Assembly: GCA_002726205.1 (NCBI GenBank)
Contig: PBSL01000019.1
Coordinates: 16,763 to 80,762 of the forward strand
Reading direction: 5' to 3'
DNA: 64,000 nucleotides
Origin: Planctomycetaceae bacterium
GTDB lineage: Bacteria > Planctomycetota > Planctomycetia > Planctomycetales > Planctomycetaceae
Part shown: in pieces, positions 44,150 to 47,497 of the stretch
Layout: each line of letters starts with the position of its first letter
Numbering within the stretch: the first letter of the stretch is position 1
Position numbers and translations under genes: made by a program
Notes under the pieces: model-generated
What the model was told of the DNA's origin: nothing
What the model saw: only the letters and a program-made list of their open reading frames with translations
Databases searched by the model: none

Positions 44150-45157
44150 TCATCCGTCCCAGGGAGCGGCCATCCTAGCACAGACCGCAGCCGCCTCGAC
44201 CGTCTCGACCGATGAATCCGGTTCCAGCCACTGCAGCCCCCGGGTTGCGTAATCCGGTCCCAGGTCGAAGGAGCGCTTGATCGCCAGGTCGACATCCAGC
44301 GGATTGCCGCTGCCGGCGGCCGAGAAGCCGATGCGGTGGAGATAAGGGATGCGGGCAGGCGGAAACGGGAAATCGCTGCCGTGCAACAGTCGCCGCCTGA
44401 GCGATTCGGGTTCGGCCGCCAGTCGTGCCAACGCGCGTCGCCGCGGCCAGGTGGCCAGGATCGACGTGTCACCGTACAGGTTCTCGTAGGCATGCATCAT
44501 CTCGACAAACCCCGGATAGTAATCCTCGCGGTCAAAAAACGCGCACGTTCCACAGTGGGCCGCGATGACTCTCAACCCGTGTTCCAGCGGACGGGCCAGG
44601 CGACGGGGATCGGTGAAGGCCTGCGAGATCACCTGGCAGGAGTGTTCGTAGCCGGTATGAAACATCAGCGTGACGTCGAGTTGGGCGGCGAGTCGATAGA
44701 ACGCGTCGAACCGGGGCAGCGACGGATCGACTCCCTGGATCGCCGTGTGCACCTTGACCAGCCGGCCACCGGCCAGGGCACATCGCTCGAGTTCCTCCAG
44801 CGCGTCTTCCCGGACCGGGTTGATCGAGCATCCCGGCAGGATCTTCTCGTGGCGACCGGCCAGTTCGAGCACGTAGTCGTTGGAGACGTAAAAGTGGGTT
44901 CTCGAGAGGTCCGGCTGACCGTCATCGCGGTAAACAGCGTCCTGGGCCAGGACCACGGCGCGTTGCAGTCGCGATTCGTCCAACTGGCGGATGAGCCGGT
45001 TGCGGATCTGCTCGCTTCGTGTCTCTCCCGGTTCGCGGTTCAAGCCAGTCAGCCTGACGATCAGCCGCGTCAACCAGCGACGGCGGGTCTGTTCGGACAG
45101 GAATCCCTGTTCGGGGTTCTCTCCCCAGCAGAAAACGTGCGTGTGAATATCCAGCAT
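44150..45157 (-). CDS. Metal-dependent hydrolase, amidohydrolase_2 type
   Basis: A 335-residue TIM-barrel protein without a signal. Metal-ligand motifs: HTHVF at residues 5-9 (HxH), KVHTAIQG near 135, FHTGYEH near 165, IAAHCGTCAF near 198 and the catalytic Asp in LHGSDFPFPPARIPYL near 275. The pattern fits the amidohydrolase_2 group, which hydrolyses lactones or amides or decarboxylates aromatic acids. It lies 67 bases after the selenoprotein gene and 12 before the YiiX-like gene on the same strand. Substrate not predictable. Confidence 0.88.
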   Translation of the reverse strand: MLDIHTHVFCWGENPEQGFLSEQTRRRWLTRLIVRLTGLNREPGETRSEQIRNRLIRQLDESRLQRAVVLAQDAVYRDDGQPDLSRTHFYVSNDYVLELAGRHEKILPGCSINPVREDALEELERCALAGGRLVKVHTAIQGVDPSLPRFDAFYRLAAQLDVTLMFHTGYEHSCQVISQAFTDPRRLARPLEHGLRVIAAHCGTCAFFDREDYYPGFVEMMHAYENLYGDTSILATWPRRRALARLAAEPESLRRRLLHGSDFPFPPARIPYLHRIGFSAAGSGNPLDVDLAIKRSFDLGPDYATRGLQWLEPDSSVETVEAAAVCARMAAPWDG

Positions 45158-45224: not shown

Positions 45225-45728
45225 TCACGCGCGAACCATCTCCAGAATCGATTCGACAGGGGGTCGATCCACGGGGGTCCTGGTCACGTGGTGAAACCGT
45301 GTGATGCCGTCGGGGTCGATCAGCACGTCACCGCCGAGCTGGTAGACGTCACCGGCGGGTGGCCGCAACCGTCGCCCCTTGAAGATCAACTTCAGGAATC
45401 CCCACCACGACGCCGGACCCCAGATCGCCCAGTACCCTCCACGGGGAAGGGCATGGGTCGTGTAGAGTGTCCGCTGGGTATCGACCAGCAGCGGCCACGG
45501 CCAGCCAGTCTCCTCGACGTAGGCCCGCGCCGGCTCGGGTGGCTGAAACGTTACCGCCAGCACATCCAACTCCAGGCGGTTGATTTCCTCGGCCGACTGC
45601 TGCAACTGCAGCAGGTGTTCCCGTCAGGGCAGTCACGTCAGGTGCCGGTGAAACACCAGCAGCAGCCAGCGGCCGTTGCGGTCCTCGAGCCTGTGTTCCT
45701 TCCCGGTCGTGTCACGCAGCGTCGACAT
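45225..45728 (-). CDS. SelL-related AhpC/TSA-type redox protein with UxxU selenocysteine motif
   Basis: Read through two in-frame TGA codons this is a single 167-residue thioredoxin-fold protein. Start MSTLRDTTGKEHRLEDRNG at 45728 has GGAG six bases upstream; ATG 45758, overlapping the symporter stop (TGATG), is an alternative. The active site translates RHLT-U-LP-U-REHLLQLQ, with TGA codons at 45633-45635 and 45624-45626 exactly replacing the cysteines of the CxxCREH motif of AhpC/TSA_2 proteins. The rest is intact: LDVLAVTFQPPEPARAYVEE, WPWPLLVDTQRTLY and QLGGDVLIDPDGITRF. The SelL family is known to use a diselenide UxxU. A SECIS-like hairpin follows. Other genes here use TGA as stop, so general recoding is excluded. 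The alternative is a pseudogene with two exact Cys-codon mutations. Confidence 0.85.
45597..45614 (-). promoter_or_regulatory. Candidate bacterial SECIS hairpin for the UxxU protein
   Basis: On the minus strand a perfect 7-bp stem (CTGCTGC with GCAGCAG) closes a four-base loop AGTT. The loop G is 18 bases after the second TGA and 27 after the first. Bacterial SECIS elements are compact hairpins just downstream of the UGA with a G in the first two loop positions, roughly 16-37 bases away, so one hairpin could serve both codons. Derived by eye; no energy was computed. Confidence 0.6.
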
Positions 45729-45757
45729 CACAGACTCCGATCGGATTGTCGTCGACA

Positions 45758-47497
45758 TCACCAGAGGACGACGAGGTTCAGGTAGGCCAGAATGCCCAAC
45801 ACGATGGTGGCCCACAACCAGGGCTGTTTTCTCAGTGGCAACCGGGTCCGGGCATCATCGAACGGATGCCTCGGCAGTTCGATCAACTCGCGGCGTGTTT
45901 TCTCGAGCCAATTGCCCTCGTCGGCTTGACGCTCGGAGCGCATTTCTCCCGACGCTTCGATCTCGCCGACCGGCACCGGTCCCTCACCGGCGGTCGCGGG
46001 CAACCAGACGACCAGTCCCTGCAGTTCCTCTCGCCGGGCCCGTCCCAGCACGAGTGTTGTCAGCAGCACGCCCAGTGCGGTTGCGCCGATGCTCCAGAGA
46101 AACCCGTACCATTTGTTGGACCACCAGACGGGGAACGCATGGTCGGACATCTCGCAGAGAAACCTTGCCAGCCCGCAACTGCAGCCAAACGCCAGGCCGA
46201 CCAGACCGCTCTTGCGATGTGCGGGCGTGAAGATGCCGGCCAGGTACACCGTCATCAACGGCAGCACGGTGACGCTGATCATCTCGAGATAGAACTTCAC
46301 CATCCCGATTTTCAGGAAGGGAACGTAGGCGAACGAGGCGCCGATCACGACGAAGGTGGTGATGCGGGAGACCCGGAGGTAGTGGTAGTCGTTGGCATTG
46401 CGGACGAGGAACCTCGCGTAGAGGTCGCGGGTGAAGACGACCGAGAGGGACGAACCGATCGAGTCGAAGGTCGAGATGCCTCCGGCCAGCAATCCGGCGA
46501 CAACGATCCCGGCCAACCCCCCGCCCAGCGGGACCAGGTGTTCGGAAATCAGGATCGGGAAAATGTCGTCGGCCCGTTCGGCCGGCAGGTTGGGCCGCAC
46601 CCCCCGTCCGAGGATTCCCAGCGTGACGTTGAACCACATCACGCCGGCGGTCACCGCGGCGGCGACGACCGCGGCCATCTTCACGTCCCACTCGCTGCGT
46701 GCGGCCAGCATTCTCATCGACTGGCTGTGATTGACGACGCAGTAGGCCGTCAGCGTGATGATCCAGCCGACGATCACCAGCCAGGCCGGGACGCCTTCTT
46801 CGAGGTGTTTTCCCACGTGCGTCATGGCCCCGCGGACCCGCTCGCTCACGTTTGCCTCGACCATTGTCTTTTCCATCCCGGCAAATCCGCCGACGGCCTG
46901 GTAGACGACGACCCACATCACCACCGCGGCAGCCAGCATCACGACCGACTGGATCGAATCGGTCAGCACCACCGATTTCAGGCCTCCCATCGCCGTGTAG
47001 GCCGCCGCCCCGGCGGCGATCGCCACCACGAGGTACCACGTGGCGTCACCCCAGCCGGTCAGCAGGCTGAACGTCAGGTACAGCGAATAGGCCACGTTGC
47101 CCAGGACGTTGGTGCGGTAAAGTACCTGCACGATCACGGCGATCACACGGGCCCCCGGATCAAATCGCCGTTCCAGGTATTCGGCGTTGGTGAACATCCC
47201 GCTGCGGTACATTGGCAGGAAGACGGCCCAGGCGACCAGGAACCAGCCAATCGTGATACCCAGCCACCAGTCGGTGATGAAGTTCATCCCGTTCTGGTAG
47301 GCCGCGCCGGCCACGGCGACGTAATCGCCGCTGTCAACGGCGGTGGCGAACATCGACAGGCCCACCATCCACCAGGGCAGCCCGCGGGCCGCCAGCATCC
47401 AGTCCACCGCCCGGTTTGTCTCGCGAGACTTCCAGAGTCCGAACGCAATGATCGCGCCGTTGATTCCGACAACCAGGCACCAGCCGAATGCATTCAC
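45758..47497 (-). CDS. Sodium:solute symporter family protein
   Basis: A 579-residue polytopic membrane protein of the SSS family with about 13 hydrophobic segments. Recognisable regions: WMLAARGLPWWMVGLSMFAT then AVDSGDYVAVAGAAYQNG (substrate and sodium region), YLERRFDPGARVIAVIVQVL, GGLKSVVLTDSIQSVVMLAA, and GLLAGGISTFDSIGSSLSVV, the conserved sodium-site helix. Couples sodium entry to uptake of a small solute such as a sugar, amino or carboxylic acid; the substrate is not evident. Its stop overlaps one possible start of the selenoprotein gene by one base, so they probably share a transcript. Confidence 0.92.
   Translation of the reverse strand: MNAFGWCLVVGINGAIIAFGLWKSRETNRAVDWMLAARGLPWWMVGLSMFATAVDSGDYVAVAGAAYQNGMNFITDWWLGITIGWFLVAWAVFLPMYRSGMFTNAEYLERRFDPGARVIAVIVQVLYRTNVLGNVAYSLYLTFSLLTGWGDATWYLVVAIAAGAAAYTAMGGLKSVVLTDSIQSVVMLAAAVVMWVVVYQAVGGFAGMEKTMVEANVSERVRGAMTHVGKHLEEGVPAWLVIVGWIITLTAYCVVNHSQSMRMLAARSEWDVKMAAVVAAAVTAGVMWFNVTLGILGRGVRPNLPAERADDIFPILISEHLVPLGGGLAGIVVAGLLAGGISTFDSIGSSLSVVFTRDLYARFLVRNANDYHYLRVSRITTFVVIGASFAYVPFLKIGMVKFYLEMISVTVLPLMTVYLAGIFTPAHRKSGLVGLAFGCSCGLARFLCEMSDHAFPVWWSNKWYGFLWSIGATALGVLLTTLVLGRARREELQGLVVWLPATAGEGPVPVGEIEASGEMRSERQADEGNWLEKTRRELIELPRHPFDDARTRLPLRKQPWLWATIVLGILAYLNLVVLW

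Follow-up and report, generated by a model that had tools for sequence, protein, structure and literature searches.

The locus

The window, which is the whole 64,000-nucleotide stretch of DNA analysed here, carries on its minus strand a gene for a redox protein with two in-frame UGA codons, flanked by genes whose arrangement recurs at related loci (given below by L numbers).

45758..47497, minus strand: sodium:solute symporter (PF00474), upstream of the redox gene; synteny kept in L052/L057 and L053
45225..45758, minus strand: SelL-related redox protein gene with a UxxU motif, 178 codons including the final TGA
45728, minus strand: second possible ATG start of the redox gene
45633..45635, minus strand: UGA1, codon 42, aligned with the first redox cysteine; common to the UxxC clade
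45624..45626, minus strand: UGA2, codon 45, aligned with the second redox cysteine; TGC or TGT in UxxC relatives
45597..45614, minus strand: predicted bacterial SECIS hairpin CTGCTGC-AGTT-GCAGCAG, 7 bp, loop at 45604-45607
44150..45157, minus strand: amidohydrolase (PF04909), downstream; syntenic in L052/L057, L053 and L067
42776..44137, minus strand: permuted papain-like amidase (Peptidase_C92, PF05708), further downstream; syntenic in L052/L057, L053 and L067

The order symporter, redox gene, amidohydrolase and C92 peptidase is the same in the window, L052/L057 and L053, and the symporter's TGA stop and the first ATG of the redox gene share one base (TGATG). TGA is the terminal codon in four of the six neighbouring genes checked, and is therefore a normal stop in this genome. 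At the 5' end of the redox gene (45715-45760, minus strand), TGATGTCGACG occurs twice, 30 bases apart, and because of these copies two in-frame ATG codons have the same surroundings, giving two candidate starts.

When TGA is read as U, positions 45225-45758 translate as a single open frame, and the read-through product (MSTT...HRHLT-U-LP-U-REHLLQLQ...MVRA) contains U at residues 42 and 45 and ends at a TGA codon. The redox pair is encoded by TGA CTG CCC TGA, and these two UGAs are the only interruptions of the frame. In profile searches the read-through protein matches AhpC-TSA (3.2e-14) and AhpC-TSA_2 (1.3e-13), and with 171.8 bits it exceeds the curated cut-off of 120 for NCBIfam NF040769, ‘SelL-related redox protein’. 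A tblastn search of the product against its relatives aligns both TGAs with the two cysteines of CxxC homologues, so that an in-frame UGA stands at a redox cysteine of homologous proteins, as is looked for in bacterial selenoproteins.

The initial annotation of this DNA had joined two minus-strand frames across TGA-CTG-CCC-TGA, placed each TGA on a redox cysteine and described the rest of the gene as undamaged; translation confirms one AhpC/TSA-type frame, the alignment to CxxC homologues agrees on the cysteines, and the frame contains no other stop or break. It had also expected automated annotation to split the gene, and mechanical ORF calling does indeed split it at its UGAs; standard annotation is likely to split or drop it.

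Relatives and the origin of the second UGA

Among 61 distinct motif stretches, 31 are UxxC and 27 are CxxC, and the others are single cases of UxxU (the window), UGA followed by ACC, and Cys followed by GCG. Ten of the 11 related loci in named genomes reach the motif, and all ten have TGA only at the first position. In a tree of 59 rows (L055 was too short and was left out, and one of two same-named L087 rows was lost), the window gene falls inside a group of 27 rows, 26 of which are UxxC and whose fork has a support of 88/80. It is sister to L052 and L053 (support 100/97), in which the second motif position is TGT (L052/L057) and TGC (L053). As both the syntenic orthologues and the clade are UxxC, the second TGA is derived and lies one substitution away, and in this lineage one base change next to a SECIS already present is likely to have added a second Sec. 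With the first UGA present throughout the clade, the SECIS would already have been in place before UGA2 arose.

Compared with L052, dN and dS are 0.22 and 1.13 before the motif, 0.22 and 1.06 after it, and 0.21 and 1.03 over the whole redox gene. The resulting dN/dS of approximately 0.2 on either side of the motif fits purifying selection, although dS is near saturation, such that a very recent loss would not show. In the same comparison dN is 0.12 for the amidohydrolase and 0.25 for the first 126 codons of the C92 gene. The end branch of the window gene (0.18) falls between those of L052 (0.11) and L053 (0.30) and therefore gives no sign of decay; in a comparison with the outgroup L054, the window protein (53%) stands nearer to it than L052 (51%) and L053 (49%) do, and is therefore not speeding up.

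Two observations concern the wider family. L077 combines a first-position UGA with ACC (Thr) at the second redox position, a UxxT form in which the hairpin is kept. L058 and L063-L066 are close UxxC relatives, most of them with the hairpin, in bins labelled delta proteobacterium/Myxococcota, Bacillota and Armatimonadota, which suggests either horizontal transfer or mislabelled bins.

The SECIS-like hairpin

In the bacterial SECIS model, as given in the relevant passage of a recent review, the loop is 3-9 nt and the stem 4-16 bp, the loop lies 16-37 nt after the UGA, a G is present within the first two loop bases, and the minimum free energy is at most -7.5 kcal/mol (PMC13188914). The window hairpin falls within these limits, with a 4-nt loop (AGUU), 7 bp, and a loop distance of 25 nt from UGA1 and 16 nt from UGA2, the two UGAs being separated by six bases. 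Its energy of -11.1 kcal/mol is that of the hairpin alone, and in the scoring for UGA1 this hairpin is listed with a loop of 8 nt at a distance of 23 nt. The spacing of UGA2 is at the lower edge of the range; the other UGAs checked in this genome have spacings of 22, 22, 28-29 and 31 nt.

Folding energy was rejected as evidence for a SECIS, as z-scores of -0.59 to -1.78 are unremarkable for the composition; five neighbouring genes with 2577 codon positions have an equally stable legal hairpin at 4.6% of them. The case for the predicted hairpin is instead a comparative one, made up of covariation, the contrast with Cys relatives, and recurrence.

Across 24 UGA rows (including that of the window and omitting L057, which is a copy of L052), 81% of pair cells are paired and all seven pairs have changed on both sides. 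The covariation score is 0.471 compared with 0.208 +/- 0.030 for shuffled alignments, with none of 500 shuffles as high and all slid controls exceeded. Cys relatives provide a better control, because related sequences can exceed every shuffle in a test of this type. With identical stretches removed and later-fetched loci added, 18 of 24 UGA rows but none of 13 Cys rows retain all four core (inner) pairs, as do, among new rows that lay outside the definition of the hairpin, 6 of 9 UGA rows but none of 15 Cys rows. The loop AGTT follows the same division (19/24 and 6/9 UGA rows versus 3/13 and 0/15 Cys rows). RNAalifold retains only the four inner pairs, and in this register the hairpin is missing from some distant UGA relatives, with two of seven pairs in L056 and L041 and three of seven in L091 and L106. 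CTGCAGTTGCAG has one occurrence in the 64 kb window, against a mean of 0.00 over 100 shuffles.

The predicted RNA fold puts UGA2 itself into a hairpin loop closed by a weak stem of 3 bp, CCC-TGAC-GGG (45620-45629, minus strand), which is probably a chance product of the LPxR codons.

Selenocysteine machinery

The source genome (4.86 Mb in 76 contigs, 96.04% complete and 1.17% contaminated) contains a tRNA-Sec with a UCA anticodon (69.6 bits, gathering threshold 47) as well as selA (510 bits), selB (354 bits) and selD (347 bits), each over its cut-off, and thus has the selA, selB, selC and selD set that accompanies bacterial selenoproteins. selA adjoins selB on contig C76, whilst selD, on contig C13 (L020), has an in-frame TGA of its own (SCAG-U-AGK), followed at 31 nt by a hairpin with the loop AGGTC and an energy of -9.2 kcal/mol, within the SECIS rules. 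Sec genes and selenoproteins are noted for two of three planctomycete genomes in a passage of an earlier survey (PMC4807772), and, according to a passage of a review, a SECIS follows every Sec codon in bacteria (PMC3541580).

Searches for other UxxU copies

In a search of 392 genomes of the phylum, 139 of which matched, two TGAs were seen, among the matches listed, only in the window's own row. A search of the family (170 genomes, seven matching) found two TGAs only in the window itself, and none of the seven matching genomes among 154 from the class of G249 had two. Across 392 phylum genomes, a table of rows over the NF040769 cut-off, in which the window's genome does not appear, holds 52 rows, of which none has two TGAs, 19 have one and 33 have none; the two 392-genome searches cover largely the same genomes. 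The pattern H-[LF]-x-U-x-x-U-x-[DE]-H is present in four of the 170 genomes, namely the window's and three in which the surroundings, judged by eye, indicate no kinship. The viral contigs searched contained no relative.

UxxU copies read as WxxW by gene callers using code 4 were also sought. Of 55 protein matches seven span the motif, and these comprise three WxxC and four CxxC but no WxxW; a region-restricted search yielded two candidates only and no match. P0002, a 92%-identical protein, begins downstream of both codons, where UxxC and UxxU are indistinguishable. Three metagenome proteins of the redox family (P0010, P0024 and P0026) have W at the first redox position (WLPC), which is probably UGA read by the gene caller under code 4.

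Relation to known proteins

Selenoprotein L (SelL), reportedly described by Shchedrina et al. in 2007, has a two-Sec motif of the form UxxU, and the two predicted Sec codons of the window gene have this spacing. Passages on SelL describe two Sec residues with a diselenide bond, in fish, invertebrates and marine bacteria (PMC2397514), and, in a section on eukaryotic genes, two Sec residues served by one SECIS (PMC3541580). The eukaryotic SECIS is located in the 3'-UTR, whereas the window gene has a predicted bacterial in-frame hairpin, and the tie between animal SelL and the window gene is the NCBI family name alone. The phrase ‘SelL-related redox protein’ was not found in the literature searched. 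Within NF040769, whose cut-off the window gene passes, many relatives have a first-position UGA and the same hairpin, but the 52 rows over the cut-off in the 392 genomes have one UGA or none, compared with two in the window gene.

The UxxU active-site form of Prx-like proteins is already in print. A passage of the GOS paper mentions ‘Several UxxU-containing sequences’ within Prx-like 2 (PMC2398784), and in a table of a 2026 review the entry for a Prx-like thiol:disulfide oxidoreductase reads ‘UxxC, UxxU, 1~2’ (PMC13188914). These proteins are likened to the window gene by description and may belong to the same subfamily or to another; the passages that mention them come without genome machinery, synteny or a UxxC ancestor, all of which are available for the window gene. 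What appears to be fresh is the predicted lineage-specific gain of a second Sec beside a pre-existing, covarying SECIS, with the unusual feature that one SECIS is predicted for two UGAs. A literature search covering mainly titles and abstract openings found nothing on one bacterial SECIS serving two UGAs.

The predicted fold of the redox protein (mean pLDDT 75.5, pTM 0.73; residues 1-10, 107-114 and 131-136 are each below 50 pLDDT) has a two-residue-spaced redox pair at the start of a helix after a core strand (residues 32-37), with the helix (43-54) beginning at the UxxU motif. The best matches among solved folds are Bcp/peroxiredoxin Q proteins, and ResA and human prostamide/PGF synthase (PGFS) are also matched. 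Bcp4 (3hjp_A; E 4.2e-10, TMq 0.70) and human PGFS (C44/C47; 9usa, TMq 0.73) are cysteine proteins with 13-20% identity to the redox protein, which in contrast is UxxU. A sequence search of solved structures returned only 2ywn, a peroxiredoxin-like protein (E 2e-4).

Interpretation and alternatives

The locus is best read, with a probability of roughly 0.8, as encoding a SelL-related UxxU protein in which both UGAs are read as Sec via one downstream SECIS-like hairpin, a reading made from sequence comparison. The initial annotation had likewise proposed a probable UxxU selenoprotein, and the Sec machinery, the ancestral first UGA and a covarying hairpin at legal distances support this. Of the checks it had put forward, the search of the full genome found selA, selB, selD and tRNA-Sec all present, and the family search placed the product over the NF040769 cut-off with a match to AhpC-TSA_2.

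Under this reading the first UGA is old, being present in the syntenic orthologues and the surrounding UxxC clade, and the second would have arisen by a single TGC or TGT to TGA change on this lineage, beside the SECIS that serves the first. From its binding site on the hairpin, SelB would bring Sec-tRNA to UGA1, 25 nt from the loop, and a second time to UGA2, 16 nt from it. Where the first long helix begins, at its N-terminus, a low-potential diselenide would form and be reduced again to two selenols, and the protein would serve as a thiol/selenol oxidoreductase or peroxidase. That one bacterial SECIS decodes two UGAs two codons apart, with a point mutation converting a UxxC protein into a UxxU diselenide protein, seems to us a reasonably likely proposal.

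The alternatives differ mainly in what they make of UGA2. The initial annotation had argued that a pseudogene would need two independent Cys-codon to TGA changes, but this is wrong, as UGA1 is common to the clade and one change suffices; an error or a fresh null mutation at UGA2 is consequently cheaper than was assumed. On one such account UGA1 is a real Sec codon, in an ordinary UxxC selenoprotein, and UGA2 came into the assembly (76 contigs, 96% complete) through a mistake in sequencing or consensus building, or as a variant from a minority strain. The TGC or TGT of UxxC relatives is one base from TGA, and the genome searches found no second UxxU copy; however, such an error must hit exactly the second redox Cys with the sole stop codon that the gene can decode, in a gene that has no other stop or frame break, and we consider it unlikely. 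UGA2 could also be a genuine recent nonsense mutation, with Sec inserted at UGA1, termination at UGA2 and a freshly dead gene, in keeping with its derived state and its position at the edge of the published spacing range (PMC13188914). This appears quite unlikely given a gene that has no other lesion, constraint on both sides of the motif, an end branch that is not long, a perfectly kept hairpin, and an active-site form that is known, from the passages cited above, in Prx-like proteins.

A further alternative, in which UGA is generally reassigned or read through (as Trp, for instance) instead of specifying Sec, would be compatible with a frame that is open under code 4. It is scarcely credible in view of the four of six checked neighbours that end in TGA, the tRNA-Sec with a UCA anticodon in the genome, and the placement of both TGAs on Cys positions, and the initial annotation was right to regard code reassignment as improbable on the basis of neighbouring stop codons.

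If the Sec reading of both codons is correct, the syntenic UxxC orthologues and the UxxU gene form a natural before-and-after pair for the gain of a second Sec in bacteria. Were both UGAs decoded, they would provide an ordered test case, as the hairpin is at the same place in the UxxC and UxxU genes. The questions thereby opened are the minimum UGA-SECIS distance in bacteria, the use of one hairpin for two successive codons, and the effect of a second selenium on redox potential.

Other candidate selenoprotein genes in the genome

Four further genes of the source genome have an in-frame UGA at likely active sites. An AhpC-TSA family search of this genome gave 21 matches, with two TGAs in one (the window gene) and one TGA in three. 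Two of the latter have a glutathione-peroxidase domain (GSHPx; 123 and 148 bits, below the NCBIfam cut-offs), and their TGA contexts are NVANY-U-G and NLASQ-U-G.

L121:312-848 (contig C8) and L122:280-846 (contig C15), minus strand: two glutathione-peroxidase-like genes, UGA at the likely Sec site
L120:503-1063 (contig C57), minus strand: thioredoxin-like (ResA-like) protein, UGA in FLH-U-GGC

Both GSHPx genes contain CCTGCAGTTGCAGG, in which the AGTT loop lies 22 nt downstream of the UGA and the core is the same as that of the window gene; one hairpin has an energy of -6.8 kcal/mol, which misses the -7.5 rule, and the other -9.7 kcal/mol. The GC-AGUU-GC hairpin in two predicted Sec genes of another family hints at what the SelB of this genome may recognise. 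In the GSHPx genes the CCTGCAGTTGCAGG hairpin encodes LQLQ, as in the window gene of a different family, and the shared hairpin seems to dictate this peptide across families.

The L120 gene is a candidate for a further selenoprotein. Its thioredoxin-like product has ResA as its best NCBIfam match (42.7 bits against a cut-off of 170), and a hairpin, CCACCTGGTCAGGTGG, lies 28-29 nt downstream of its UGA.
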